Shown piece after piece: positions 72 through 13,588 of a stretch of DNA of 38,004 nt. The stretch's first letter is position 1. Each line of letters starts with the position of its first letter. Made by a program: the position numbers and the translations under genes. The notes under the pieces are model-generated. The model did not search any database. It was given only the letters and a program-made list of their open reading frames with translations, and was not told the DNA's origin. The stretch is from Paracoccaceae bacterium. Lineage in GTDB: Bacteria; Pseudomonadota; Alphaproteobacteria; Rhodobacterales; Rhodobacteraceae. Location of the stretch: NCBI GenBank assembly GCA_020629115.1, contig JAHDDY010000014.1, forward strand, positions 24,248 through 62,251, in the 5' to 3' direction.

Positions 72-1523
72 TCAGTAGGTGCTCTCGCCCTCGTAGATCG
101 CCTGCTCGTCGACCGGGGCGACGCGCAGGATGTTGGTCGTGCCGGGGCGGCCGAAGGGGACGCCGGCGGTGACGGCGATGCGGTCGCCCTCCTCCGCTAT
201 CCCGAGCGCCTTGGCCGCGCGCGCCGCCGAGACGACGGCCAGCTTGAAGCGCGTCACCTCCTCTGAGATGACGCAGTGCAGGCCCCAGTACATCGTCAGC
301 GCCCGAGCCGTGCCCTGAATGGGTGTCAGCGCGATGATCGGCGCGTTGGGCCGCTCGCGCGCGGCGAGGCGGGCGGTCGTGCCCGAATGGGTGAAGCAGC
401 AGATCGCGCTCACCTCGACCGCCTCGGCCACCTCGCGGGCGGCCGCCGTGATGGCGGTGGCCACGCTCGCCTTGGCGGAGGTGCGGGTATCGTCCATGCG
501 CTCGCGGTAGGTGCGGTCCGCCTCGACCTTCATGGCGACGTTGGCCATGGTCGCCACCGCCTCGACCGGATAGTCGCCGGCCGCCGATTCGGCCGAGAGC
601 ATCACGGCGTCGGCCCCCTCGTAGATCGCGCCCGCCACGTCCGATATCTCGGCGCGGGTGGGCACGGGGCTGGAGATCATGCTCTCCAGCATCTGCGTGG
701 CGACGACGACGGGCTTGCCCACGTCGCGGCACTTGCGGATCAGGGATTTCTGGATGCTGGGCAGGTCGGCCAGATCCATCTCGACGCCCAGATCGCCGCG
801 GGCGACCATGATGCCGTCCGAGGCCGCGAGGATGGAGGCGAAATCCTTCACCGCCGCGGGCTTCTCGACCTTGGTCATCACCAGCGCGCGGCCCTTGATG
901 AGGTCCTTCGCCTCCTCGATATCCGCCGCCCGCTGCACGAAGGACAGCGCGATCCAGTCCGCGCCGAGACCGCAGGCGAATTCCAGGTCGGAGCGGTCCT
1001 TGTCGGACAGGGCGGCGACCGGCAGCACCACGTCGGGCAGGTTGACGCCCTTGCGGTCCGAGATGGGACCGCCGACCACCACCTCCGCATCGACCGCGTC
1101 GCCATGGGCCGCCGTGACCGTCATGCGGATCTTGCCGTCGTTGACGAGGATGGTCGAGCCTTCCGTCAGCGCGCCGAGGATCTCGGGGTGGGGCAGGCGC
1201 ACCCGGGTCGCATCCCCCGGCGTCTCGTCCAGATCGAAGCGGAAGCTCTGGCCGACCTCCAGCTCGTGCGCCGCGTCGGCGGCGAAGACACCGCAGCGGA
1301 TCTTCGGCCCCTGGAGGTCGGCCAGCACGCCGATGGGCTGGCCCAGCTCGTGCTCGATCTCGCGGATCAGCTCGTAGCGGTCGCGCTGGTCGTCCTGGGT
1401 GCCGTGGCTCATGTTCAGCCGGAACACGTCGACCCCCGTCTCGACCAGCGTGCGGATGGTCGCCCGGTCGGAAGAGGACGGCCCCAGGGTCGCGACGATC
1501 TTGACGTTCCTGGACTGATTCAT
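72..1523 (-). CDS. pyk: pyruvate kinase
   Basis: This 483-residue cytosolic enzyme converts phosphoenolpyruvate and ADP to pyruvate and ATP, the last step of glycolysis. Family motifs are clear: the N-terminal KIVATLGPSS, FRLNMSHG, the substrate-binding LQGPKIR, the active-site lysine stretch MTKVEKPAA, VARGDLGVE and ATQMLESM, followed by the C-terminal domain with CFTHSGTTARL. The length is normal for the family. I chose the ATG at 1523 because it starts MNQSRNVKIVATLGP and is preceded by a GTAAGGAAC ribosome-binding site. The reading frame stays open upstream into the divergent dehydrogenase gene, but that extension is only GC-driven. No terminator is visible before the window edge. It is divergent from the hydroxyacid dehydrogenase across 135 bp. 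Confidence 0.97.
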   Translation of the reverse strand: MNQSRNVKIVATLGPSSSDRATIRTLVETGVDVFRLNMSHGTQDDQRDRYELIREIEHELGQPIGVLADLQGPKIRCGVFAADAAHELEVGQSFRFDLDETPGDATRVRLPHPEILGALTEGSTILVNDGKIRMTVTAAHGDAVDAEVVVGGPISDRKGVNLPDVVLPVAALSDKDRSDLEFACGLGADWIALSFVQRAADIEEAKDLIKGRALVMTKVEKPAAVKDFASILAASDGIMVARGDLGVEMDLADLPSIQKSLIRKCRDVGKPVVVATQMLESMISSPVPTRAEISDVAGAIYEGADAVMLSAESAAGDYPVEAVATMANVAMKVEADRTYRERMDDTRTSAKASVATAITAAAREVAEAVEVSAICCFTHSGTTARLAARERPNAPIIALTPIQGTARALTMYWGLHCVISEEVTRFKLAVVSAARAAKALGIAEEGDRIAVTAGVPFGRPGTTNILRVAPVDEQAIYEGESTY

Positions 1524-1658
1524 CGGCCAGAGTTCCTTACAATGCTTTGGATGGTCGATGCTTTTGCGGAGTATTCGACGAGAGGCAAGACAAAGATGCC
1601 GCTCTGGGGTACGACATTTTCGCGACTTTCCATTAATTACGTCAGGGGGACACTTGCC
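1524..1658. promoter_or_regulatory. divergent promoter region between pyk and the hydroxyacid dehydrogenase gene
   Basis: This 135-bp gap separates two divergent starts, so both promoters should lie here. It is visibly richer in A and T than the flanking genes, especially at 1614-1640 (a CATTTTCGCG stretch followed by CATTAATTACG). An AGGGGGA ribosome-binding site at about 1644-1650 serves the plus-strand gene, and a GTAAGGAAC site serves pyk. No convincing sigma-70 hexamer pair or operator stands out. Confidence 0.5.
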
Positions 1659-2612
1659 ATGAAGATTGTTTTTCTCGACCGCGACACGATCGGCCCGACC
1701 GTGACCATCACCCGCCCCTCCTTCGACCACGACTGGATCGAGTACGGCAAGACCGCGCCGGACGCGGTCGCCGGGCGCATCGCAGACGCGGATATCGTGG
1801 TCACGAACAAGGCTCCCATCCGCGCCGAACAGCTCGCGGACGCGCCGAACCTGAAGATGATCGCCATCGCGGCGACGGGGTACGACGTGATCGACGTGCC
1901 CGCCTGCACCGAGCGCGGCATCGTCGTGTCGAACGTGCGCGGCTATGCGACCAACACGGTGCCCGAACACGCCTTCGCCCTCATCCTCGCCCTGCGCCGG
2001 TCGATCGTGGGCTACCGGCAGGACGTGATCGACGGGGCGTGGCAGGAATCCGGGCAGTTCTGCTTCTTCACCCATCCCATCAGGGATCTCGCCGGCTCGC
2101 GCCTCGGCATCATCGGCGAGGGCGCGCTGGGCCAGTCGGTCGCGCAGATCGCCCGCGCCTTCGGCATGGAGCCGGTCTTCGCCGCGCACAAGGGCGCGAC
2201 GGGGCTGGGACCGCTCTACACGCCGTGGGACGAGGTGATCGCGACCTCGGACGTCATCACGCTGCACGCGCCGCTGATGCCCGCGACCCGGCACATGATC
2301 TCGACCCCCGAATTCGAGGCGATGGAGAGGAAGCCCATCCTCGTGAACACCTCGCGCGGCGGGCTGGTGGACGAGGCGGCGCTGGTGGACGCGCTCGACC
2401 GGGGCCTGATCGCCGCCGCCGGGTTCGACGTGCTCACCAGCGAGCCGCCCGCCCCCGACAACCCGCTCCTGTCGGTGCTGGAGCGCCCGAACGTCATCGT
2501 CACGCCCCATGTCGCCTGGGCCAGCGAGGAGGCGATGCAGACGCTGTGGGATCAGGTCGTCTCGCATGTCGAGAATTTCGAGCGCGGCGCGCCGTCGAAC
2601 ACCATCGGATAG
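1659..2612 (+). CDS. D-2-hydroxyacid dehydrogenase (glycerate dehydrogenase-like)
   Basis: This 317-residue NAD-dependent oxidoreductase belongs to the D-isomer-specific 2-hydroxyacid dehydrogenase family, which interconverts 2-hydroxy and 2-keto acids such as glycerate and hydroxypyruvate. The Rossmann motif GEGALG is at residues 153-158. The catalytic trio is visible as Arg233 (NTSRGGLVDE), Glu262 (LTSEPP) and His284 (TPHVAW). The region around residues 97-105 (ATNTVPEHA) matches the usual segment before the cofactor domain. The ATG at 1659 has an AGGGGGA ribosome-binding site eight bases upstream. It stands alone, divergent from pyk and ending six bases from the convergent LysR gene. The glycerate dehydrogenase reading is the closest by motif, but substrate cannot be set from sequence, so no gene symbol is given. 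Confidence 0.88.
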   Translation: MKIVFLDRDTIGPTVTITRPSFDHDWIEYGKTAPDAVAGRIADADIVVTNKAPIRAEQLADAPNLKMIAIAATGYDVIDVPACTERGIVVSNVRGYATNTVPEHAFALILALRRSIVGYRQDVIDGAWQESGQFCFFTHPIRDLAGSRLGIIGEGALGQSVAQIARAFGMEPVFAAHKGATGLGPLYTPWDEVIATSDVITLHAPLMPATRHMISTPEFEAMERKPILVNTSRGGLVDEAALVDALDRGLIAAAGFDVLTSEPPAPDNPLLSVLERPNVIVTPHVAWASEEAMQTLWDQVVSHVENFERGAPSNTIG

Positions 2613-2618
2613 GACGCC

Positions 2619-3554
2619 CTACCCCTCGATGACCAGATCGTCGAAATCGGAGCGGGCGACGGCGCGGATGGTCTCGCTGATGCTCTCGTAGGCCGCGTTG
2701 CGCCCCGCCCCCGCGCGCCAGGCCATGCCGATGGCGCGAAAGAGCGGCGGGCCGCTGAGCGGGCGCACCACGACATCCGTCCGGCGGCCGATCTCGGAGC
2801 GCACGTAGAGCGCGGGCATGAAGGTCAGGCCCATGCCCATGCCGACCATGACCCGCAGGGCATCGAGGCTCGTCCCCTCGTATTGCTGGAGCAGATGCGC
2901 GCGATGCTCCTCGCACAGGTGCCGCACCTGATCGTGCAGCAGGTAGCCCCGGCGCAGCGTCAGCACGGGCTGGTCGCGCAGGTCCTCCGGATCGAGGCGC
3001 TCCTTGCGGGCGAGCGGGTGGTCCCCGGCCATGGCGACGTAGATCGGTTCGCGGAACAGGCGGCGCACCTCCAGCGCGTCGGGCCGGGTCAGGGGGAGCT
3101 GGGCGAGGATGGCGTCGTGCACCCCGCCGTGCAGCTCCTCCTCCAGATCGCGCGGCACCGCTTCGCGGACGTAGAGCCGCAGGTCGGGATGGGCGCCGTG
3201 CAGCCGGGCGACGACATGGGGCAGCAGGTACGGCGCGAGCGTCGGCTTGGCCCCGAGCGAGATCGTCCCCACGGGTTCCGCCCGCGCGCTCTCGCCATAG
3301 GCCACGATCCCCGCCACCTCGCCCAGCGTCCGCTGCGCCCGCTCCAGCACGTCGCGCCCCGCCGGGGTCAGGTGCACCCCGCGGCGGCCACGCTCCACGA
3401 GGCGCAGGGCGAGCGTCTTCTCCAGAAGGGCGACCTGCGCGCTCAGGGAGGGCTGGCTGATCCCGAGCCGCTGCGCCGCCTCGCCGAAATGACGCGTCTC
3501 CGCGAGGGCCGCGAAGTAGCGTAGCTGCTTGAGGGTGATCCGGGCGGGGTCCAT
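2619..3554 (-). CDS. OxyR-like LysR-family transcriptional regulator with altered redox cysteine
   Basis: This 311-residue LysR regulator has an N-terminal winged helix-turn-helix (about residues 6-65, LKQLRYFAALAETRHFGEAA) and a C-terminal effector domain. It follows E. coli OxyR closely throughout: PTLAPYLLPHVV matches PTVGPYLLPHII, and TSLDALRVMVGMGMGLTFMPAL matches TSLETLRNMVAAGSGITLLPAL. In the redox loop, OxyR GHCLRDQAMGFC corresponds to GYLLHDQVRHLC. The peroxidatic Cys199 position is therefore Leu205, while the Cys208 position is kept as Cys214. OxyR-type disulfide switching is not expected. I chose the ATG at 3554 (MDPARITLKQLRYF) by family alignment although its ribosome-binding site is weak; an ATG at 3599 is possible but would place the operator at 3564-3578 inside the gene. 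Its target is probably its own promoter and perhaps the divergent small genes. Confidence 0.9.
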   Translation of the reverse strand: MDPARITLKQLRYFAALAETRHFGEAAQRLGISQPSLSAQVALLEKTLALRLVERGRRGVHLTPAGRDVLERAQRTLGEVAGIVAYGESARAEPVGTISLGAKPTLAPYLLPHVVARLHGAHPDLRLYVREAVPRDLEEELHGGVHDAILAQLPLTRPDALEVRRLFREPIYVAMAGDHPLARKERLDPEDLRDQPVLTLRRGYLLHDQVRHLCEEHRAHLLQQYEGTSLDALRVMVGMGMGLTFMPALYVRSEIGRRTDVVVRPLSGPPLFRAIGMAWRAGAGRNAAYESISETIRAVARSDFDDLVIEG

Positions 3555-3563
3555 GTGAGGTAA

Positions 3564-3578
3564 ATAGGTTTTTCCTAT
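3564..3578. promoter_or_regulatory. candidate OxyR/LysR-type operator, ATAG-N7-CTAT
   Basis: A perfect inverted repeat, ATAGG-TTTTT-CCTAT, begins ten bases upstream of the LysR start, in the gap shared with the divergent DUF465 gene. It satisfies both the general LysR box T-N11-A and the OxyR half-operator ATAG-N7-CTAT. The second ATAG-N7-CTAT unit of the full OxyR site is not present at the expected spacing. Autoregulation by the adjacent regulator is the natural inference. Confidence 0.6.
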
Positions 3579-3658
3579 CGAAAATCGACGCCGGACCATC
3601 TTTTCCCAAACGCGGCCCTGCCCATATCGTCCTCTCCAAGATAACCGAGGAGGACTCG

Positions 3659-3883
3659 ATGACGAACACCGCTACCCCGAAACTGCGCGATCGCATGCGG
3701 TCGCTGGCGAACAGGCGCGCCACCCTCAAGAAGCGCATCGCCGACGAGCTGGCCCGCCCCGCGCCCGACGCCACCCGCCTGCGCACGCTCAAGCGGATGC
3801 GGGTGCGGCTCAAGGATCAGGTTGCCCTCATCGCGCGGGAGCTTCGCCTCGGACAGGGGCATCCGTCGGGGGACGCGGCATGA
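3659..3883 (+). CDS. DUF465 (YdcH-family) small protein
   Basis: This 74-residue, highly basic protein matches the DUF465/YdcH pattern: a helix with an LKKRIADELARP segment (residues 24-35), a short turn, then TLKRMRVRLKDQVALIARE. This is predicted to fold as a helical hairpin or coiled coil. The family is widespread in Proteobacteria and its function is unknown. The ATG at 3659 has a strong GAGGAGG ribosome-binding site. It is divergent from the OxyR-like regulator and its stop overlaps the next small gene by ATGA, so the two are translated together. Regulation by the neighbouring regulator is possible because they share the ATAG-N7-CTAT site. Confidence 0.75.
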   Translation: MTNTATPKLRDRMRSLANRRATLKKRIADELARPAPDATRLRTLKRMRVRLKDQVALIARELRLGQGHPSGDAA

Positions 3884-4089
3884 CGAGACCGATGTATCTC
3901 TTCCCCGTCAGCCCCTTCACCGGCCTGACCCGCGAGCCATCGCCGCCGAGGCAGGCCTCGTTCCGCGACCGGGATATCGACCGCCTCCACGACGATCTCG
4001 GGGATATGGGCGCGCTGCTGGAGGAGACCGAGCAACGGCGGCGCGACCGGCGCAGGCCCGCGCGCGGCCATCGCGCCGAGGTCGCCTGA
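3880..4089 (+). CDS. hypothetical small protein coupled to DUF465 gene
   Basis: I do not recognise this 69-residue protein. It opens with a short proline-rich segment (MTRPMYLFPVSPFTG) and continues with an acidic then very basic helical region (DRDIDRLHDDLGDMGALLEE, then an RRRDRRRPARG tail). No signal peptide or membrane segment is seen. Support for its being real comes from the ATGA overlap with the DUF465 gene and from the strong terminator only nine bases after its stop. It would be made with the DUF465 protein and may act with it. Confidence 0.55.
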   Translation: MTRPMYLFPVSPFTGLTREPSPPRQASFRDRDIDRLHDDLGDMGALLEETEQRRRDRRRPARGHRAEVA

Positions 4090-4097
4090 CGGTATGC

Positions 4098-4135
4098 GAA
4101 AGGGGCCGCGCGATCTCCGGCGCGCGGCCCCTTTC
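4098..4135. terminator. intrinsic terminator after the small-gene pair
   Basis: A perfect 15-bp stem, GAAAGGGGCCGCGCG (4098-4112) paired with CGCGCGGCCCCTTTC (4121-4135), has an 8-base loop and ends in CCCTTTCCCTCTCTC on the plus strand. It closes the plus-strand pair of small genes and can also act on minus-strand transcripts leaving the gene that ends at 4185. Confidence 0.8.
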
Positions 4136-4145
4136 CCTCTCTCTT

Positions 4146-4168
4146 GCCCCGGGCATCGCGCCCGGGGC
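4146..4168. terminator. second hairpin in the convergent gap
   Basis: GCCCCGGG (4146-4153) pairs with CCCGGGGC (4161-4168) around a 7-base loop. It lies 17 bases beyond the stop of the large minus-strand surface-protein gene. The run of T after it on the minus strand is weak, so it may only stabilise the 3' end or work together with the neighbouring hairpin. Confidence 0.5.
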
Positions 4169-4184
4169 TTTCGCGTCTCGCCGG

Positions 4185-7100
4185 TTACCGCCGGACGACG
4201 AAGCCGGGGTCCTGGGTGATGCCGAGGCGGTCCATCCGGTCCCACATCGAATCGTCCAGCTTCACCAGCATCCGCAGGTACCAGCCCGAGCGGTAGAGGC
4301 TGCGCAGGCGGTTCTCGTCGACGTCGATATGGGTGTAGCCCACCCCGACCTGGACGTTCTCGGCGATGTTGGCCTTCAGCTCCGCGCCGACGCCGACGGT
4401 CACGTCGTCCATGCCGCCATCGGTGAAGAACGCGACGTGTCCGCCGAGGGCGAAGCGGTCGCGGCCCTCCTCGTCATGGGCGAAGTCGATCTCCATGCCG
4501 CCGCGCAGCAGGTGGCGCGTCGAATCGTCCGAGAAGGTCGGGCTGCGGAAGTCGACGTGCTCGCCCGCCACCTTGAGGTCAGCGCGCAGATCCTTCGTGG
4601 GGCTGTAGATCACGCTCGCGCTCCAGCGGTGGGCCATCTCGCGCGTGTCGTCCTTGTCGTCGATCTCGAACTCGTAGAGGGCGAGACCCTGGAGGCGGCT
4701 GTCATGCTCGGGCCGCCAGGCGAGGCCGAGGCGCAGGCGGTCGCGCAGCCGGTCGTCGCCGCGCAGGTCGAGGGCGAGGCGGTTGCGGGCCAGCAGCGTG
4801 AAGTCCTCGTCCAGCTCGTAGCCGACCGCCGTGTTGAGGTAGACGCCGTAGCCCTCCGCGTCGCGGTCCCCCTCGATATCGCCCCGGGCGAGCACGCCCG
4901 TCGCGTCATTGTCGTAGGCGACGCCCAGATGGCCCGAGGAGACGCGCTCGTCGCCGCCGTTCACCGGCTCGATATGCTCGCCGCCCGCGCGCATCGCGAC
5001 ATGCTCGGTCAGCGCCCAGCGGCCCCGGAAGCCGTTGGCGACGCCGCCGTCGAAAGCGAGGCCCCCGCTGCGGCGGAACTCGGAGAAGGCGCTGATGTCG
5101 CGGGTCATCTGGTACTCGGCACCCACCTTCGTCACCACGTCGATATCGGCGGAATCCCCGAGGCCGAAGTCGCGGCCGGCGGCGTTCGAGAACTCGTTCA
5201 GCGCGTGGAAGCGCAGGGCCGGGCTCCACTGGTAGTCCGCGCCCAGGATCGCGCGCCAGTTGTCGCCGTCCTTGAAATCCTGCTCGTATTCGGCGCGCAG
5301 GCCGGCACCGGGCAGGAAGCGGGGGCGGTAGTCGAGGCCGACGATGCCGCTGTAGATGCGCTCGTCGTCCCCGCCGTCGCGCCGGGTATCGGTGGCGCGC
5401 GCGCCGCCGATCAGGTCCAGCTCCGGCCAGACGGCGTAGCGGCCCCTGACCTCCGCGCCCATGCGCCGCTCGTCCGTCTCGGTGCTGCGGGTGTAGAGCG
5501 TGTCGGTGGTCACGCCGATCGTCTCGGTCACGACATGATCCGTCGTCACGCGCACTTCCTCGCGGCCCGGGCCGACATGGGCGTTGGGGGCGTCGAAATC
5601 CTCGTCGGTGCGGGCGGCATCGGCGCGGATGGCGTGGTTCTCGCGGCGCAGCTCGTAGGACAGGCGCGCGCCGAGACCCTTGTCGCCCTCGCGGTTCTCG
5701 GTCTGGGCGACCTCGACCTGCACTTTGCCCCAGCCGCGCAACTCGGCCTCGGCGTAGCCCGCGCGGACGGTGCGGGCATCGTCGGAGGTATCGGGCGCGT
5801 CCGAGCGGACCTCGCGGTACCCGAAGGCGATGCCCTCGACCGGCTCGACCCGCACCTCGCCGCCGTAGACGAGGTAGTCCTCCCCCGCGCCATCCTCGCG
5901 CTCGTAGGTGAGGCGGATGGAGACCGGGTTCAGGTCGTCGTCGAGGATCGGCACGGGCCGGTCGAAGATCAGCGACCCGGCGAAGAAGTCGAGCGTGTAG
6001 TCGCTCAGCCGCGCCTGGCGGACGCTGGAGAGGATCACCGACGGCTGGTCGCGGTCACGGGTGATGATCTCCACGATCTCGCTGCCCTCGGCGATGCCCG
6101 TCAGGGGCACGTCGTAGGGACCGGAGACCCCGCGCCCGGGGATCTCGATCACGGCCTGGGAGGCGTCGGTCTCGGCGACGAACAGGTCGACCGTGACCGG
6201 CCCGTACTCGACATGCGCCCGGCCCCCGGTCAGCGAGCGGCGATAGGCCCCGAGCCGGAACGCGTCGGCCCGCGCCTCGACCGCCAGATCGCCGTAGAGG
6301 ATGTAGGACCGATCCCGCTCCACCTTCACGTAGAGGCGCGAGGAGGATTGCGCGTCGAAGCCGCGCTCGGAATCGTCGCCGTAGACGGGGTAGAACTCGT
6401 CCTTGCGGATATCGCGGAACAGGCGCTCCTCGTTGTCCCGGTCGCTGTCGTAGCGCAGGGTCAGGAGGTTCGAGCCGAGGATCTTGCCCTTCAGGTAGAG
6501 CTGGCCGCGCACGCCCTGCGTCGTCTCCTCGAAGGCGGAGATGTCGCGGGACGTCATCAGCCCCGCAAGTCCGCGGCGGTTCTCGGCGAAGCCCACCGCC
6601 CCCTCGATGACGCCCGCGAAGGTGCGTTCGGTCAGGTCGGGGGTGAAGCCGATGGTGGTCTCCACGGTGCCGAAATCGCTCCGGACGGTCAGGGTCTCGG
6701 CCCCGACCAGGTCGGGCGGGATGAAGTCGAACACCGCCTCGCCATCGTCGATATAGGCCTGCAGGCCCGGCGTGGAGTCGCGGATGTCGCGCACGTCCCA
6801 CCGGCCCTTCTCGGCGCGCAGCGTCACCTCGGCGGGGGCGCGGGTCAGGCGGCCCTCGGCGTCGACGACGCGTACCAGCACCGGGATGCGGGCGCGCGAA
6901 TCGGCGGGGGCCTCGTCGGGGGCGGCGATGGCGAGCGCCGCCGGTTCGCCCGGAGCATAGACCGTCACGGTCTCGCGGCCGCGGTCGTTGCCGAACGGGT
7001 CGGTCAGGATGGCGGCCAGGGTGTTGGCGCCAGGCTTCAGGCGCAGGGCGACGTATTCGAAGACCTGCACGCCGCGCTCGCTGTCGGTGACCTTCGCGCC

Positions 7101-10061
7101 GATCTGCGCGTCGGACACGGTCTCGTCGTTCAGCTCCAGGCGCAGGGCCCCTTTCGTCGGCCCCTTGATGCGCAAAGTGACGGAGAGGGTGTCGGCCTCC
7201 GCACCGTCATCGACGCCGACGAAGCCGAGTTCGGGGTCGAGGGAGCGGACCTGCCGCTCGATATCCTCGGGTGCGGGCGGGTCCGCCGGGTCGGCGGCGG
7301 GCGCGTCGCCGGGGGCGCCGTCGCTGCGGATCTCCGTCGTCGTGTCCAGACCGGCCTCGCCGCGCGAGGACAGCCGCGAGGGCGTGTCGAAGGCGAGCGG
7401 CAGGTCGTCGCGCAGGCGCGATTCGTCCGCGTCCAGCCCCTCGAAGCGCAGCGCGCGGGCGGCCACGTCGGCGGCGACGTCGGGCGTCCAGCGGATCGGG
7501 AAGTGCTCGGTCCGCACCTCGCCGCGCTTGAGGTCCACGAGGCGCGAGCCAGGGGCGAGGACGTCGTCGATGTTGGTGTCCATCGGCTCGGCCCCGCCGG
7601 GCAGGGTGACCGATTGCAGGGCGAAGGTGCTCACCACGGGGCGCAGGCCGAAGAGCGAGTAGCGACCTTGCGCATCGGTGACGACGGTCAGGCCGGTCGA
7701 GGTGACGATCTTCACGCCCGGCACGCCCGGCTCGTCATGGGGGTTGCCGTCGGCGTCGAGGGGCGTCTGCACCCCGTTGCCGTCGCGGTCGAGGAAGACG
7801 CGGCCCAGCACGACCGCCTCGTCCGTGAAGACCCCGCCCCGGTCGTCGACCGTCACGTCCGCGCGCGCCTCGGTCGAGCGCAGGGCGATGGCCGTGCCCG
7901 CCTGATCGCCCGACAGGACGGCGACGTTGGTCTTGGTGCCCCGGCGGGCGGCGGTGCCCACGCGCACGGCGTAGGTGATCTCGGACTGGCTGCGCGGGTC
8001 GATGAAATCCAGATCGAAGGTCAGGACGCCGCCCTCGGCCACATCCGGCTGTTCCGCCATGCGGACGCCGTCGCGCCGGGCCGAACCGTCGATGAAGTGG
8101 AGGCCGGGGGGCAGGCGGTCTTCGAGCGAGGCGTTGAGCAGGGCCTGATCCATGCGGTTATGGGCGGTCAGGGTATAGATCACGTGCCCGTTGCGGCGCA
8201 CCAGCGCGCGGTCGGCGACCTTCTCCAGCGCGATGGGAATGCCCGTCATCGGATCGACCGGCACGTCGATGCCCGCAATGGGACCGCCCTGGAACGAGAA
8301 GTTCAGGCCGTAGGAGACTTCCTGGTTCACCCGGCGGTTGAAGCCCGGGAAGTTGCGGCGCACGGAGGGATGCTGGTAGACCACCGGCGGGAAGACGGTC
8401 ATCTTGTAATCGCCCTGGGGCAGTTCGCCGAGCGAGAAGTAGCCCTCCGCGTCGGTGCTCGTCACGGCGAGCTGCACGTTGGCGGCACTCGGCGCGCCGG
8501 GGGTGGCCACGATGGGCGCGATGTCGCCGTCCGGCTCGAAGATGACGACGCGGGCGTTCTGGACGGGGGCGTTCGTCACGCTGTCGAAGACGAAGCCGCC
8601 CGGCTGCAGGCCCAGCGTGCCGGTCACGGTGCCGCCGATGCAGCGCACGGTGGCGGTGGCGTTCGCCCTGTCGCCCGGCAGGCCCTCCAGCACGTTGTTG
8701 AGCGGACGCGCCCGGGTCGCGCGCAGGATGCCGAGGGGCGCGGCGCGGAAGACGCCGGTATTGGGGCCGGTCTCGCGGGCGACGATGACCTCGCGGTCGC
8801 CGATGAAGAGCGTGCGGACCACCACCTCGACCCGGTCGATGCCGTCGGTCACGTTGCAGCCCGCGCCCTCGACGGCGATATGCACGTTCACGTCGAAGGG
8901 CGTGCTGGTGATCGGTTCGCCGTCCGGCGAGAGGGAGAAGATCACGCGCGGGCCTTCGCCCGTCACGGGGGTCACAGTCTGGTTGGACGGACGCTCGCGC
9001 GTCTCGGTCCCGTCGTTCGTGTAGCCGTAGGCGATGTTGTCGACGTTCAGTTCGTCGATCGAATCGGACAGGGAGACGGTGAAGGCCAGATCGCTCGACC
9101 GGCCCACCGCGTAGGCCCCCTCGTGCAGGAAGGCGATGGCGTCGATCCGCGACGGGTCGGCGGGGGCGGTCGCGGTGTAGCTGTGCGTCGCGTCGCCGTC
9201 GAGGTGATAGACCGCCGCAAAGCCGCCCGAGGGCACCGCCGAGACGAAGGTGGTGTTGAGCGGGATGCTGTCGCGCACCAGCAGGGCGGTACGCGGCGCG
9301 CCGTCGACCAGGATCGCCTCGCCCGCGACGTCGCCATAGGCGGGAATGTCGCTCTCGGCATTGTTGCGCACGGTGATCGTGTAGGCGATCTGCCGCTCCT
9401 CGACGTTCAGCTCCGCCGCCTTCAACAGGCTGAGGGTCGCGTCCTCGATGACGGTGCGCGAGCCGCGCGCGCCGGTGATCGGCGCGCCGCCGCCCGAGGC
9501 CGGGGTGGCCGTCACGGTCAGTTCGACCCTCGATTCGTCGTCGATGGCCACGCTGGCGGGCGTCGTGTAGCGGTAGATGAGCGACACGCGCTCGCCCGGC
9601 TGGAGCGTGACGCTCTGGCCCGGCACGACGGGCGTGTCGCCGCTGTCGACGATCCCGTTTGCGTTCGTATCGACCAGGAGGTCGCCTGCGGTGTCGAAAT
9701 CGTCCCCCGGCAGTTCGGCGAGGGCGGGGACGGCGAAGAGGGCGACGTTGCCCGTGTTCACGGCCTGGAAATTGTACTGCGCCGCGGTCGAGCGGGCGGT
9801 GCGGATCGTCTGGTCGCCCGTCACGTCGAGGCCGGGAACGGGCGAGACGGTCGCGCTGACGATGTTGGATTCGACCTCCTCGATGATGCCGAGGCGGGTG
9901 TTGAAGTAGGTGACGCTCGCCCGGTTGACGATCTGCGCCCCCGCGGGCGCGGGGGCGGCATCGCCCTGCCCAACCACCGCCATTCCGGCGAGCGCGGCCA
10001 AGGCACCGGCGCGCACCAGACGGCACCATCGGCCGCCTTCGGAAACGAGAGTCCGAACCAT
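4185..10061 (-). CDS. giant DUF11/SdrD_B-like multi-domain outer-membrane beta-barrel protein
   Basis: This 1958-residue exported protein has a signal peptide (residues 1 to about 35, ending GQGDAA). An N-terminal module (about 40-110) is shared with the upstream 914-aa protein and is followed by an Asp-rich loop (DTNANGIVDSGDTP). DUF11-like beta domains follow. A carboxypeptidase-regulatory-like domain sits at about 489-565 (DAEGYFSLGELPQGDYKM). A canonical DUF11 domain is at about 605-730 (YTLTAHNRMDQALLNASLED). An SdrD_B-like domain starts at about 752 (GRVFLDRDGNGVQTPLDADG). Ig-like modules run to about 1140. The last 770 residues show alternating amphipathic strands with YPVYGDDSERG and LYVKVERDRSYILYGD, a pattern of large outer-membrane barrels; the last strand is probably GWYLRMLVKLDDSMW, with a short tail after it. 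The ATG at 10061 has an AGGAG site. It is the last gene of a three-gene surface cluster. Role unknown: adhesion, matrix export and surface-layer anchoring are all possible. Confidence 0.85.
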   Translation of the reverse strand: MVRTLVSEGGRWCRLVRAGALAALAGMAVVGQGDAAPAPAGAQIVNRASVTYFNTRLGIIEEVESNIVSATVSPVPGLDVTGDQTIRTARSTAAQYNFQAVNTGNVALFAVPALAELPGDDFDTAGDLLVDTNANGIVDSGDTPVVPGQSVTLQPGERVSLIYRYTTPASVAIDDESRVELTVTATPASGGGAPITGARGSRTVIEDATLSLLKAAELNVEERQIAYTITVRNNAESDIPAYGDVAGEAILVDGAPRTALLVRDSIPLNTTFVSAVPSGGFAAVYHLDGDATHSYTATAPADPSRIDAIAFLHEGAYAVGRSSDLAFTVSLSDSIDELNVDNIAYGYTNDGTETRERPSNQTVTPVTGEGPRVIFSLSPDGEPITSTPFDVNVHIAVEGAGCNVTDGIDRVEVVVRTLFIGDREVIVARETGPNTGVFRAAPLGILRATRARPLNNVLEGLPGDRANATATVRCIGGTVTGTLGLQPGGFVFDSVTNAPVQNARVVIFEPDGDIAPIVATPGAPSAANVQLAVTSTDAEGYFSLGELPQGDYKMTVFPPVVYQHPSVRRNFPGFNRRVNQEVSYGLNFSFQGGPIAGIDVPVDPMTGIPIALEKVADRALVRRNGHVIYTLTAHNRMDQALLNASLEDRLPPGLHFIDGSARRDGVRMAEQPDVAEGGVLTFDLDFIDPRSQSEITYAVRVGTAARRGTKTNVAVLSGDQAGTAIALRSTEARADVTVDDRGGVFTDEAVVLGRVFLDRDGNGVQTPLDADGNPHDEPGVPGVKIVTSTGLTVVTDAQGRYSLFGLRPVVSTFALQSVTLPGGAEPMDTNIDDVLAPGSRLVDLKRGEVRTEHFPIRWTPDVAADVAARALRFEGLDADESRLRDDLPLAFDTPSRLSSRGEAGLDTTTEIRSDGAPGDAPAADPADPPAPEDIERQVRSLDPELGFVGVDDGAEADTLSVTLRIKGPTKGALRLELNDETVSDAQIGAKVTDSERGVQVFEYVALRLKPGANTLAAILTDPFGNDRGRETVTVYAPGEPAALAIAAPDEAPADSRARIPVLVRVVDAEGRLTRAPAEVTLRAEKGRWDVRDIRDSTPGLQAYIDDGEAVFDFIPPDLVGAETLTVRSDFGTVETTIGFTPDLTERTFAGVIEGAVGFAENRRGLAGLMTSRDISAFEETTQGVRGQLYLKGKILGSNLLTLRYDSDRDNEERLFRDIRKDEFYPVYGDDSERGFDAQSSSRLYVKVERDRSYILYGDLAVEARADAFRLGAYRRSLTGGRAHVEYGPVTVDLFVAETDASQAVIEIPGRGVSGPYDVPLTGIAEGSEIVEIITRDRDQPSVILSSVRQARLSDYTLDFFAGSLIFDRPVPILDDDLNPVSIRLTYEREDGAGEDYLVYGGEVRVEPVEGIAFGYREVRSDAPDTSDDARTVRAGYAEAELRGWGKVQVEVAQTENREGDKGLGARLSYELRRENHAIRADAARTDEDFDAPNAHVGPGREEVRVTTDHVVTETIGVTTDTLYTRSTETDERRMGAEVRGRYAVWPELDLIGGARATDTRRDGGDDERIYSGIVGLDYRPRFLPGAGLRAEYEQDFKDGDNWRAILGADYQWSPALRFHALNEFSNAAGRDFGLGDSADIDVVTKVGAEYQMTRDISAFSEFRRSGGLAFDGGVANGFRGRWALTEHVAMRAGGEHIEPVNGGDERVSSGHLGVAYDNDATGVLARGDIEGDRDAEGYGVYLNTAVGYELDEDFTLLARNRLALDLRGDDRLRDRLRLGLAWRPEHDSRLQGLALYEFEIDDKDDTREMAHRWSASVIYSPTKDLRADLKVAGEHVDFRSPTFSDDSTRHLLRGGMEIDFAHDEEGRDRFALGGHVAFFTDGGMDDVTVGVGAELKANIAENVQVGVGYTHIDVDENRLRSLYRSGWYLRMLVKLDDSMWDRMDRLGITQDPGFVVRR

Positions 10062-10112
10062 CGCGAATCTCCTGCGAGCGAGAGAAAAAAGGTAGAAACG
10101 AATAGAGGGGGT

Positions 10113-10138
10113 GGGGACGCCGCGCGGGCGGCGTCCCC
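10113..10138. other. intercistronic hairpin between the two large surface-protein genes
   Basis: GGGGACGCCGC (10113-10123) pairs perfectly with GCGGCGTCCCC (10128-10138) around a 4-base loop. It lies 12 bases past the stop of the 914-aa gene and 51 bases before the start of the barrel gene. Without a T tract on the minus strand it is more likely an attenuating or mRNA-stabilising hairpin than a full terminator. Confidence 0.5.
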
Positions 10139-10149
10139 GGAAGATCGGC

Positions 10150-12894
10150 CTATTCGTCGATCTTCACGGTGAAGGACAGGACCGCCGGCGCACCGGGCAG
10201 CAGCGTCCCGTGGGTGCTCTCCAGCGCGCCGCCCGCCCCTTCGGGGGGCTGGGACACGATGGTCGAGCCTGCCGGGGTGACCACGACGGCGCACTGGTTG
10301 CCGCCGCCGCCGGGGCATTCGGTCAGGGTCGTGAAGCCCGGCACGGTATCGCGGATGGTGACGGTGTTCGCGTCCGCGGTGCCGGTGTTCGACGCCGTGA
10401 TCTCGTAGCGGATGCACTCGCCCGGCTTCGCGTTGATGTCGGCGGCGGTGAAGGCCGATGCCGGCTCGCCCCCGTCACAGGCCGCGTCGAGCGCTTGGCG
10501 CTTCGTCAGGGTCATGTCGCCCGAGAAGATGACGACCGTGTCGCTGACCGCGTTGTTCGACGGGTCCACGTCCGTCAGGGTGCCGGCGCTGGACTCGTCG
10601 GGCGCGTTCAGGCCGCTCTCCAGGGTCAGCGTCTCGGTCTCGCCGTAGCCGATGGCCCCGTTGGAGGGTAGCTGCACGCGGTGGATCAGCTCGATCGCGC
10701 CGCCCACGGGCAGGCCGCCCGTCACGTCGGCGATGTTGTCGATCGGGATGTCGCCCGCGTCGAGCGTGCGGTCGCCGTTCACGTCCCAGAACAGCGTGCC
10801 GGAGAAGGTCGAGAAACCGCCCGCGGGCAGGATGCCCCCTTCGGTGATCGCCACGTTGCCTTCGTTGGTCAGGGTGTGCGGGATGTCGACCACGCCGCCG
10901 GGCGCGCCTTGGACCGTCTGGTCGGTGGACAGATCGACGTCGGCGATGGTGTTCACCGTCACCTGGTTGGTCAGGGTATCGCCCTGACCCGTCGTCGGCG
11001 ACTGGACGGAGACCTCGATCGGCGTGTCGCCGGGCAGGGCGTCCGCCGGGGGCGTCACGATGACCACGATGTCCTGCGAGCCGCCGCCGGGGATGACGCC
11101 GGTATTGGTGACGGGCGTGCCGTCCGGCAGCTCGAACCGCACCGTCCAGCCCGGGGGCAGAGGGGTCGGCAGCGACAGGTCGTAGGTGTCGGCGGTACCG
11201 CCGCCGTTCTCGATGGTCATCGGGAAGGTCACCGGGTCGCCGGGATCGGTGGCGGTGGTGATCTGCGCGGTGCCGTCATCCGGGCCGTCGCCGGTACCGT
11301 TCTGGTTCTGGAGATCGACGGTCGCGCCGAGGATCGCGCCGGTGAACAGGCCCGTCGCGGTGTTGCCCATGCCGCCGTTGGTGGACTGCGCCGTCAGGAT
11401 CAGTTCGTAGTTCGTGGTTCCCGAGGCCGCCGGTGCCGCCGTCGAGGGCAGGGTGGCGACGACGTTCACCGTGGTCGAGGCGCCCGCGGCCAGCGGACCG
11501 ACCGGCCCGACGACGGGCGTCGCGCCGTCGGAGGCGAGGATTCGGAAGGTGGTTCCCGCCGGAAAGCCGTTCGTCGCGTCGTTGGCGACCGACAGGTCGA
11601 TGGTGTCGGCGACGTTCGCGTGGTTGGTGATGACGAATTCCATCATCGCCGACCCGCCCTGGAAGAGGTCGGAATCCTCCTCGACGATATCGTTCTGCGC
11701 GCCGTCGTCGTCGGTCGCGGAGGCCCCCGCGGCCGTCAGGTTCGGCCCGTCCGGATCGCCCTGATAGGCCGTGGCGGGCGCGTCCGCCGCCGTGACGCGG
11801 TAGACCGGGTCGACGGTCACCGTGGAGGTGTTCGACGGCGGGAAGGGGGTGCCGTCGACTTCCTGGGTCGCGGTGTTCTCGATGGCGCCCGCCGGAGCGT
11901 CGGGCGCGATGGTCGCGCGGAAGGTCACGGACCCCGTGCGGCCCGTCGGCACGTTGTCGACGGTGAACGAGACCGTGCCGCTGACGGTCGCCGTCGCGGT
12001 GGGGTCGTAGGCATAGTCGATGCTGTCGCCGCTGCCGTTCGTCTGCTCCATCCCGTCGGTGCCGGTATCGGTCAGGCCGGTGGCCGAGTCGGACCAGATG
12101 GCGTCCGTCGTCGTGTCGTAGAGCAGGTACTCGCCCAGTTCGTCGGTCACGGCCATGTTGGTCGCGCCCGTCAGGCCGGTGCTGGAATAGGTCAGCGTGA
12201 CGGTGACGATATCGCCCGGGCCGACCAGGCCGTCCGAGGCCGCGCCCGGACCGTCGGTCACGGTCATCGACTTGACGATCTCGGTGATCGGACCGTTCGA
12301 GACGGTGACGGTGTCGACGTTGGTGCGCAGGCCCGCCGAACCGCCCGGCGTGGTCTGGACCGCGCCGTCGAACTGGCTGATCGCGTTGACCTCGATGGTC
12401 TCGGACTGGCCGGAGGTCGCCCCGCCCGGCACCGTCGCCTCGATCACGATGCCGAAGGCCTCGCCCGCCGCCAGGGTCGGGGTGGCGGTGATGGGCGTGG
12501 TGCTGTCGGCGATGCCGTCGAAGTTGGCATCCGCGTAGATCAGGATACCCGTGAAGTCGAACGGCCCGCCGACATCCTCGGTCGCGGTCAGGGAGAAGGC
12601 GTCCGTGCCGTTGCCCTCGTTGGTGAGGGTGTGGGGCAGGAAGACCTTGCCGCCCGGGGCCGCGCTCTCGGCATTGTCGGCTAGGAGCGTCAGCCCGGCG
12701 ACCTGCTGGACCACGGTCTCGACCTTGTTCGAGGTCACGCTGATCGTGTCGCCGGCGGCGTTGGTGTAGGTGGCCGAGGCCTGGTTGCCGATCTTCGACC
12801 CGGCGGGGGGCGCGGCGGCATGGGCGGCGACGGCGGCAAGGGAAGCCGCCGACAGCATCAGGCCGAACCGCGCGGAACGGTTGCGAATGGACAT
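10150..12894 (-). CDS. secreted multi-domain DUF11-like surface protein
   Basis: This 914-residue protein has a signal peptide (about residues 1-28, ending VAAHAAA). The mature part is acidic, rich in Thr, Gly, Asp and Asn, and consists of repeated beta-sandwich domains of the DUF11 (TIGR01451-like) type. The phrase PHTLTNEGN occurs twice, near residues 87 and 670, and marks internal repeats. Asp/Asn loops such as YADANFDGIADS and FWDVNGDRTLDAGD resemble Ca2+-binding type-3 repeats. There is no transmembrane helix, LPxTG signal or barrel. I chose the ATG at 12894 (MSIRNRSARF) because it has a GAGGAGAC ribosome-binding site and directly precedes the signal peptide. The next gene downstream carries a related N-terminal module plus a barrel, so this protein may be its partner or cargo. 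No biochemical function can be assigned. Confidence 0.82.
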   Translation of the reverse strand: MSIRNRSARFGLMLSAASLAAVAAHAAAPPAGSKIGNQASATYTNAAGDTISVTSNKVETVVQQVAGLTLLADNAESAAPGGKVFLPHTLTNEGNGTDAFSLTATEDVGGPFDFTGILIYADANFDGIADSTTPITATPTLAAGEAFGIVIEATVPGGATSGQSETIEVNAISQFDGAVQTTPGGSAGLRTNVDTVTVSNGPITEIVKSMTVTDGPGAASDGLVGPGDIVTVTLTYSSTGLTGATNMAVTDELGEYLLYDTTTDAIWSDSATGLTDTGTDGMEQTNGSGDSIDYAYDPTATATVSGTVSFTVDNVPTGRTGSVTFRATIAPDAPAGAIENTATQEVDGTPFPPSNTSTVTVDPVYRVTAADAPATAYQGDPDGPNLTAAGASATDDDGAQNDIVEEDSDLFQGGSAMMEFVITNHANVADTIDLSVANDATNGFPAGTTFRILASDGATPVVGPVGPLAAGASTTVNVVATLPSTAAPAASGTTNYELILTAQSTNGGMGNTATGLFTGAILGATVDLQNQNGTGDGPDDGTAQITTATDPGDPVTFPMTIENGGGTADTYDLSLPTPLPPGWTVRFELPDGTPVTNTGVIPGGGSQDIVVIVTPPADALPGDTPIEVSVQSPTTGQGDTLTNQVTVNTIADVDLSTDQTVQGAPGGVVDIPHTLTNEGNVAITEGGILPAGGFSTFSGTLFWDVNGDRTLDAGDIPIDNIADVTGGLPVGGAIELIHRVQLPSNGAIGYGETETLTLESGLNAPDESSAGTLTDVDPSNNAVSDTVVIFSGDMTLTKRQALDAACDGGEPASAFTAADINAKPGECIRYEITASNTGTADANTVTIRDTVPGFTTLTECPGGGGNQCAVVVTPAGSTIVSQPPEGAGGALESTHGTLLPGAPAVLSFTVKIDE

Positions 12895-13050
12895 ATGACT
12901 GTCTCCTCGTCGGAAATGGGACGTAGAAAGACCCTCCGGCCCGGCGCGCATGCGGGTCGGCGGGAAGGGGATCGTGCCCGGATTGTCGGGAGCGCTTTCA
13001 GCACCTGGGGGTCGAAGGGGCGACCCGGACCGGGCTTCCGCCGGTCATCA

Positions 13051-13074
13051 CGGCCGGGCGCGATCGCCCGGCCG
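13051..13074. other. intercistronic hairpin after the 167-aa gene
   Basis: CGGCCGGGCG (13051-13060) pairs perfectly with CGCCCGGCCG (13065-13074) around CGAT. It begins ten bases past the stop of the small DUF11-like gene, within the 190-bp gap before the 914-aa gene. No T tract follows on the minus strand, so it looks like an attenuator or a 3'-end stabiliser. The rest of the gap (12895-13050) could hold a secondary promoter, but I see no clear hexamers. Confidence 0.45.
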
Positions 13075-13084
13075 CGTGTTTGGA

Positions 13085-13588
13085 TCAGTCCACGCGGACG
13101 CGGTAGGCGTGGTTCACGATGCCGCCGCGGGGCATGGGCGCATCCAGCGTCCAGCGCACGGCGGTGTAATGCTCGGGGCGGGCGGTCTCGACCGTGCGCA
13201 CGCCGTCCTCGCCCACGACGATGCGCTGGGCGGGCAGGGTCGACCATTCCTCGCCGGGTCGGTCGGGATCGAACTCGCCGCGCACCTCGAAGAGGCCGCC
13301 CACGTCGCTCGCCGCGCGGCCCGCGATGAAGGCACTGCCCTCGGGCACGGGGCCGGTCACGATCACGCCGCCGATGGCCTCGTCGAAACCGTTGACGTGC
13401 TGCAGGCGGTATTCGATCACCTGCCCCGGCTCGACCGTGGCGGCGGCGGTGTAGCGTTCGGCCCCGTTCGCATCCGCCTCGACGACGTAGGCGACCATCT
13501 GGCTGTTCAGTTCGGCGGCGGCGAGGCTGGGCACGAAGGCCAGGAGAAACGATGCGGCCCGGAGCGGCGCGAGCGGGAAGGAAGGCAT
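13085..13588 (-). CDS. small exported DUF11-like protein
   Basis: This 167-residue protein has a cleavable signal peptide (MPSFPLAPLRAASFLLAF to about PSLAAA, residues 1-25) and then a single beta-rich domain. Residues following AATVEPGQVIEYRLQHVNG match the opening strand pattern of DUF11 domains (the x-pGdxixYtitvtNxg theme), and TGPVPEGSAFIAGRAAS matches the usual dpvP.g..fv.gsa segment. I chose the ATG at 13588 because GAGGTG precedes it; an in-frame ATG at 13630 lacks a site. It is the first gene of the surface cluster and lies just downstream of the inverted repeats at 13639-13660 and 13705-13724. It may be a periplasmic or surface accessory of the two large proteins. Function unknown. 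Confidence 0.75.
   Translation of the reverse strand: MPSFPLAPLRAASFLLAFVPSLAAAELNSQMVAYVVEADANGAERYTAAATVEPGQVIEYRLQHVNGFDEAIGGVIVTGPVPEGSAFIAGRAASDVGGLFEVRGEFDPDRPGEEWSTLPAQRIVVGEDGVRTVETARPEHYTAVRWTLDAPMPRGGIVNHAYRVRVD

Follow-up and report, generated by a model that had tools for sequence, protein, structure and literature searches.

A conserved three-gene set of Ig-like proteins and a predicted 38-strand outer-membrane barrel as a candidate secretion or anchoring system

What might three consecutive genes for exported beta-sandwich proteins, the last of which ends in a giant predicted barrel, accomplish together? In the window, the whole 38,004-nt stretch of Paracoccaceae bacterium DNA analysed here, ORFs of 167, 914 and 1958 aa (S, M and G) follow one another on the minus strand where the first-pass annotation had placed them, and DUF11-type profile matches in M and G agree with its description of the set as exported beta-sandwich proteins (Table 1). 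Signal-peptide-like N termini were recognised by eye on S, M and G. The lipobox and LPxTG patterns are absent from all three, in line with the earlier statement that no recognised surface-sorting signal is present. The cluster is flanked on its 5′ side by a gene for a PLP-dependent enzyme and on its 3′ side by genes for a LysR regulator and a pyruvate kinase (Pfam). On the plus strand a 2116-aa ORF overlaps the same DNA, and its GC by codon position suggests a shadow ORF of the kind seen at high GC. The pyruvate kinase ORF (window 72-2567, minus strand) encodes 831 aa, with the kinase domain beginning at residue 353 and the first ~350 residues having no Pfam match of note.

Table 1. Positions of the three genes and their features within the window
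Feature	Position	Strand	Length	Basis or detail
S, exported single-domain DUF11-like protein	13085..13588	-	167 aa	ORF
Hairpin directly after S	13051..13074	-		RNA folding; not conserved (z < -2.5 at 3/67 S junctions)
M, exported string of Ig-like domains (NEW3, C-terminal DUF11)	10150..12894	-	914 aa	ORF, Pfam
M residues 201-363, pilin-like CnaA domain	11806..12294	-		predicted isopeptide triad K208-D251-N340
Intercistronic M/G RNA hairpin	10113..10138	-	11 bp	11 nt past M stop codon; z -3.0
G, N-terminal Ig-like array and giant C-terminal outer-membrane barrel	4185..10061	-	1958 aa	Pfam, AlphaFold
G residues 211-352, DUF7925	9006..9431	-		PF25546, E 2e-7; predicted isopeptide triad K214-D264-N342
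G residues 610-720, DUF11	7902..8234	-		PF01345; predicted isopeptide triad K614-D648-N712
G residues 1147-1935, predicted 38-strand barrel	4257..6623	-		AlphaFold, fold searches
G residues 1309-1389, conserved insert between barrel strands 7 and 8, cap-like	5895..6137	-

The grouping extends well beyond this genome. An alignment of ten G proteins was scanned against genome contigs, giving at least 585 stretches, of which 567 were confirmed and the best 80 kept, and order was counted at these 80 loci with S, M and G profiles on mechanical ORF calls. S, M and G occur in order and on one strand at 64 of the best 80 of G's relatives, as expected if the genes usually stay together; M and G only were found at seven loci, S only at two and neither at seven, at six of which the G ORF starts at or near a contig end. 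The median gaps at the best 80 loci are 51 nt between S and M and 90 nt between M and G. Some calls need to be read with care: the "G" of L091 is an M ORF, that of L125 is a DUF11-type ORF, and the M of L069 was not called. At L053, M is truncated and adjoins a transposase-like ORF. Among the best 80 loci, those from Alphaproteobacteria include Neomegalonema, Rhodobacterales and Hyphomicrobiales, and those from other taxa include Acinetobacter, Gallionella and Lysobacter together with MAGs of Geobacteraceae, Opitutus, Thermodesulfovibrionales and Balneolales. The S-M-G order is conserved across phyla, far beyond chance, and is not specific to Rhodobacterales. On plasmid pTT27 of Thermus thermophilus HB8, S (164 aa) and M (888 aa) are followed by a G called as two ORFs and then by a DUF11 protein, and T. 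brockianus has the same succession of S, M, split G and a further protein. Plasmid-borne copies were found in Pacificitalea, Thermus and Acinetobacter, and pSymB of S. meliloti Ak57 carries M and a 1014-aa ORF that matches the N-terminal part of G only. The Acinetobacter sets L093, L094, L096 and L114 hold extra M-like genes, of ~885 and 1290-1304 aa, 5′ of S.

Linkage was also counted in a sample of 398 Pseudomonadota genomes, in which E <= 0.001 gave S matches in 44 genomes and G-barrel matches in 67. When S rows were restricted to E <= 2e-12 and G rows to E <= 1e-100, with weaker rows dropped, S was present in 38 genomes, G in 39 and both in 31, and 25 of the 42 G places had S on the same strand no more than 12 kb upstream. 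The unlinked remainder (17/42 full-length G places and 22/47 S places, many of them in fragmented MAGs) counts against strict linkage; in the eight sampled Pseudomonadota genomes of 10 contigs or fewer that carry such a G, S is upstream at 9/9 full-length G places. Any match at all was seen in 26 of the 198 genomes that make up the family sample, and the presence of S-M-G is patchy, since only seven of the 198, our own genome included, carry G at or near full length. Neighbouring genes, named by eye at the window, L037, L056, L057, L058 and L067, mostly differ while the trio is constant; L056 and L057 have common flanks, and a hydrolase-like gene lies 5′ of S in three of the compared loci. Because most flanking genes vary while the trio stays, S-M-G looks like the minimal unit.

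The junction between M and G carries a conserved RNA hairpin. Folding was scored over the 100 nt past each stop codon against 12 dinucleotide shuffles each, with a floor of 0.5 kcal, at loci that are related to one another. A z below -2.5 was obtained at 57 of 71 M-G junctions, the hairpin being absent or weak at the other 14, compared with 3/67 junctions after S, 27/76 after G and 13/85 after other same-strand genes (Fisher P 1e-16 for M-G versus other junctions, a value that overstates independence because the loci are related). The hairpin is present at 7/7 junctions from the window and Neomegalonema, 23/28 from other Alphaproteobacteria, 14/18 from Acinetobacter/Alkanindiges and 13/18 from other groups, and the whole M-G gap of the window folds with a z of -3.3. 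Sequences of the hairpin vary, with structure and position kept across phyla. In eight junctions chosen from the 18 of Acinetobacter/Alkanindiges, 5 of 12 hairpin pairs are altered on both sides with 99% of cells paired, compared with 0-1 such pairs when the register is slid. By eye, a T run directly 3′ of the stem is missing in most M-G hairpins and present in some. The closest precedent is the hairpin after pufBA, which sets the ratio of reaction centre to LHI and whose deletion changes that ratio (sections of PMC10253847). The hairpin after M suggests that S and M are more abundant than G. Alternatively, the hairpin may terminate transcription, G then having its own promoter; a sigma-70 promoter scan found none, such a scan being uninformative in this high-GC DNA.

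M matches DUF11 (PF01345) with an E of 6e-10 and 40 bits against a cut-off of 24.6, and NEW3 (PF10633) with an E of 2e-7. Its AlphaFold model has a pLDDT of 88.4 and a pTM of 0.53, and in fold searches the domain at residues 201-363 resembles pilin isopeptide domains. Isopeptide residues of CnaA-like domains are ordered Lys-Asp-Asn (PMC12617251, in the part used here). The corresponding triad is invariant in 52/52 rows of the M alignment, which took in 52 of 67 sequences, and from these residues and their order we infer an isopeptide bond in M. A clear Asn partner is missing from M's own DUF11 domain. For the overall fold, integrins and ciliary Ig strings match M at least as well as pilins do, which counts against the export reading developed below. 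The top Foldseek matches, ciliary central-apparatus proteins (E 2e-21), were taken as generic Ig strings, and the archaeal bundling pilus AbpX, matched at E 0.0045 with a 10-row M profile and gone with 52 rows, was dropped.

S matches TIGR01451 at E 5e-4 and 20.1 bits, under the cut-off of 24, and has no Pfam match; members of its family were recovered by its own profile, and the best match of that profile elsewhere (E 0.033) is to part of a GGA2 domain. The S of the window has 0% Lys, and the family alignment (66 rows, from 75 sequences) has no Lys or Asp column at 60%. Because S contains no lysine, it would lack an isopeptide bond of the usual kind.

G matches PF01345 (E 1e-8, 35.5 bits vs a cut-off of 24.6), and CarboxypepD_reg, SdrD_B and DUF7925 are also above cut-off. 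In the 81 rows of G, K, D and N are found in 62, 72 and 72 for the triad of the DUF7925 domain and in 77, 78 and 78 for that of the DUF11 domain. Such triads are of the kind reported in surface stalks and would fit a surface-exposed array. Beyond the array, the AlphaFold model, which covers the residues after the N-terminal 1039 (pLDDT 84.6, pTM 0.79), has short helices only and predicts a barrel of ~790 residues, close to the ~770 claimed earlier for G as the only one of the three with an outer-membrane barrel. The average over 76 sequences gives a hydrophobic face on 38/38 counted strands, and the predicted barrel ranks with the largest barrels known. Pfam barrel families match G below cut-off only, and fold searches with the barrel returned generic barrels only. 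The whole of G has no sequence match in the PDB at E <= 1, the barrel profile finds partial porin matches there (best E 6e-4), and a search of a viral fold library gave nothing useful. From strand parity alone, the insert between strands 7 and 8 would be cap-like and outside. An usher-like periplasmic plug was considered and is weakened by strand parity and by the lack of a hydrophobic face on strand 262-269.

Usher barrels have 24 strands and a plug in a periplasmic loop. Compared with the chaperone-usher proteins FimD and PapC, G has 38 predicted strands and an insert after strand 7 that by parity, in one prediction, is outside, and S, M and G have no usher or pilus-chaperone Pfam match. SprA, the Type 9 translocon of Bacteroidota, is a very large single-chain barrel capped on the outside; G has 38 predicted strands and an inserted domain that may be a cap, again from parity only. 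G lacks SprA_N (PF14349; Pfam, E <= 0.1), no T9SS partner was recognised in S-M-G, and the fold match to SprA is at best equal to those of other barrels. PF14349 had no match in our own genome, but the control search was also without a match. As in two-partner secretion (TpsA/TpsB), a dedicated barrel gene adjoins a large surface-protein gene, most clearly in the two-gene relatives described below; in contrast, no POTRA, ShlB or haemagglutinin-type Pfam match was found in S, M or G. The DUF11/CLIPPER fibrillar adhesins and grappling-hook filaments share with the set DUF11-type beads, isopeptide triads and giant surface proteins (PMC12617251 and PMC13319060, each in part). M and G both have a DUF11 match above cut-off and a Lys-Asp-Asn triad in a CnaA-like domain, the bond being predicted, and S has neither a DUF11 match above cut-off nor an isopeptide lysine. 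A cognate barrel with a small partner is, however, not included in the descriptions of these adhesins in the portions of PMC12617251 and PMC13319060 used here, and "outer membrane" is absent from the main text of PMC12617251. Three D. radiodurans proteins, unnamed in the main text of PMC9388160 (used in part), also have 38 predicted strands, the number predicted for G.

The best explanation we can offer, which we put forward tentatively, is that G exports and anchors an isopeptide-hardened M stalk with S as escort, in a self-contained system. In the scheme that we infer for stoichiometry, isopeptide bond, surface location, the role of S and the export of M by G, one transcript would yield more S and M than G, with the hairpin past M protecting or delimiting the part of the message 5′ of it, and S and M would both reach the periplasm by Sec. 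M, once exported, would form a stalk or coat, as a string of Ig-like beads in which an isopeptide bond arises autocatalytically. G would be a very wide, capped 38-strand outer-membrane barrel that passes folded or partly folded M beads and keeps them attached, its N-terminal Ig array lying in the periplasm and receiving M, and S, a single bead unable to form an isopeptide bond, would escort M or end the chain. At loci that have an OmpA-like or endolysin-like fourth gene, its product would tie the barrel to peptidoglycan or open the wall. That G exports or anchors M is argued from S and M that are probably abundant, a rarer wide barrel, the wall helpers, and barrels encoded on their own next to giant DUF11 or SdrD_B proteins. 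The suggestion of the first-pass annotation that the barrel protein anchors or exports the 914-aa protein thereby keeps its place as the best-supported reading, on computational grounds, given the hairpin, the isopeptide domains, the fourth genes and the two-gene variants. The periplasmic partner that it saw in S would be a candidate role. It is more doubtful that these genes represent an outer-membrane secretion pathway of many diderm phyla, in which a capped 38-strand barrel would pass pre-folded, isopeptide-locked Ig beads to the surface, with an S escort, wall helpers and a cargo-raising hairpin.

The main doubt about the export reading is that G's own array may lie outside. G would then be a self-displaying adhesin whose array passes through its own barrel, M and S would decorate or extend it, and G would export only itself. 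We regard this as unlikely. Autotransporter barrels usually have 12 strands, far fewer than the 38 predicted for G, which also lacks a Pfam match to the classical autotransporter beta-domain or any other autotransporter family. Moreover, related barrels occur as separate genes, without the N-terminal array of G, beside giant DUF11 or SdrD_B proteins: plasmid p_1 of Phyllobacterium (L164) encodes a 3550-aa DUF11 protein and then a 1278-aa barrel, pSG53 of Sulfitobacter guttiformis (L165) a ~6195-aa DUF11 protein and then a 1148-aa barrel, and Eleftheria a 2647-aa SdrD_B protein followed by a 1405-aa protein with OmpA at 114-209 and the barrel at 460-1404. Because the peptidoglycan-binding OmpA domain precedes the barrel in Eleftheria, the N-terminal side of that barrel is probably at the peptidoglycan, which again speaks against self-display. 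What keeps self-display in contention is that the array of G has two predicted triads, a feature of surface stalks (PMC12617251, in the sections used), that M may not need G as exporter, and that several Acinetobacter sets have extra M-like genes. The DUF11 protein gene of pSG53 fills 18.6 kb of this 53-kb plasmid.

A fourth gene, where one accompanies the trio, often appears from its sequence to be cell-wall related, either OmpA-like or endolysin-like. OmpA-family homologues are found in 24 loci, in 23 as a separate gene beside G and in one (L122) as the G ORF itself, and Pfam confirmed the OmpA domain in 2/2 tested homologues. The endolysin-like gene likewise has 24 loci, which represent 22 distinct places and all belong to Alphaproteobacteria, and in 18 of the 24 it follows G on the same strand at a distance of no more than 260 nt; two of its products matched PHROG endolysins (E 2e-16 and 9e-15) and had no Pfam or NCBIfam match. 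Neither gene was found beside G in the window or in the Neomegalonema loci compared, which counts against the export reading, and an endolysin-like homologue had no match in our own genome in a search run without a positive control. These wall-related genes would also suit an envelope tether or coat, in which an abundant layer of M and S, periplasmic or at the surface, is held by G, OmpA-like proteins bind the wall and no gated secretion takes place. The top two Foldseek matches of G point the same way, being to Deinococcus SDBC/SlpA, a large barrel connecting the membrane with the wall (part of PMC9388160). SlpA has 30 strands, an SLH domain and a coiled coil (same source and part), whereas G lacks the SLH Pfam match that would be expected of a tether of the SlpA/OmpM type and has only short helices in its modelled C-terminal part. 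Patchy presence (7/198 genomes have a G of full or nearly full length) would also be unusual for a general tether, and we consider this explanation improbable.

We give the lowest probability to a large barrel through which a macromolecule is taken up or diffuses, M and S acting as binders at the surface, much as in TonB-dependent or porin-cytochrome systems. Some of the barrel relatives carry the annotation TonB-dependent receptor, one of them (L164) lying near ExbB/ExbD/TonB genes, and there is a weak match to MtrB_PioB (PF11854, E 0.0044, 16.1 bits vs a cut-off of 23). Against it, S, M and G gave no Pfam match to a TonB receptor or plug and, by pattern search, no CxxCH haem motif, and the hairpin and isopeptide pattern suit a structural product better.

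Within the open-licence PMC papers searched, no description of the S-M-G set was found. The isopeptide triads, the hairpin after M and the cell-wall-related fourth genes are new relative to the first-pass annotation. If export or anchoring of M by G is right, S-M-G would be a widespread secretion or anchoring system that has so far gone without a name, hidden by gene annotations such as DUF11, NEW3, carboxypeptidase-like, OmpA or TonB receptor. G would then be a second natural giant single-chain pore, outside Type 9, that may pass folded domains, and Gram-negative display of isopeptide-hardened stalks would be directly testable in a three-gene set.

The proteins encoded at L043 4013-5479, 5′ of S, and at L058 1-2040 have a common C-terminal DUF11/S-like domain (VTHIRL ... 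YDV) and are possible further cargo; such a C-terminal sorting domain was not supported in our own genome, where it gave one partial weak match (E 0.08). In Rhodobacterales sets, for example L064 and L082, a response regulator and a divergent hybrid kinase often lie 5′ of S; neither was seen immediately 5′ of S in the window. Our own genome also holds a second, divergent set (L045, positions 72-7773 of the 7975-base contig C241), which consists of a 156-aa S′, a short M′ of 381 aa that has no Pfam match, and a G′ of 1973 aa.
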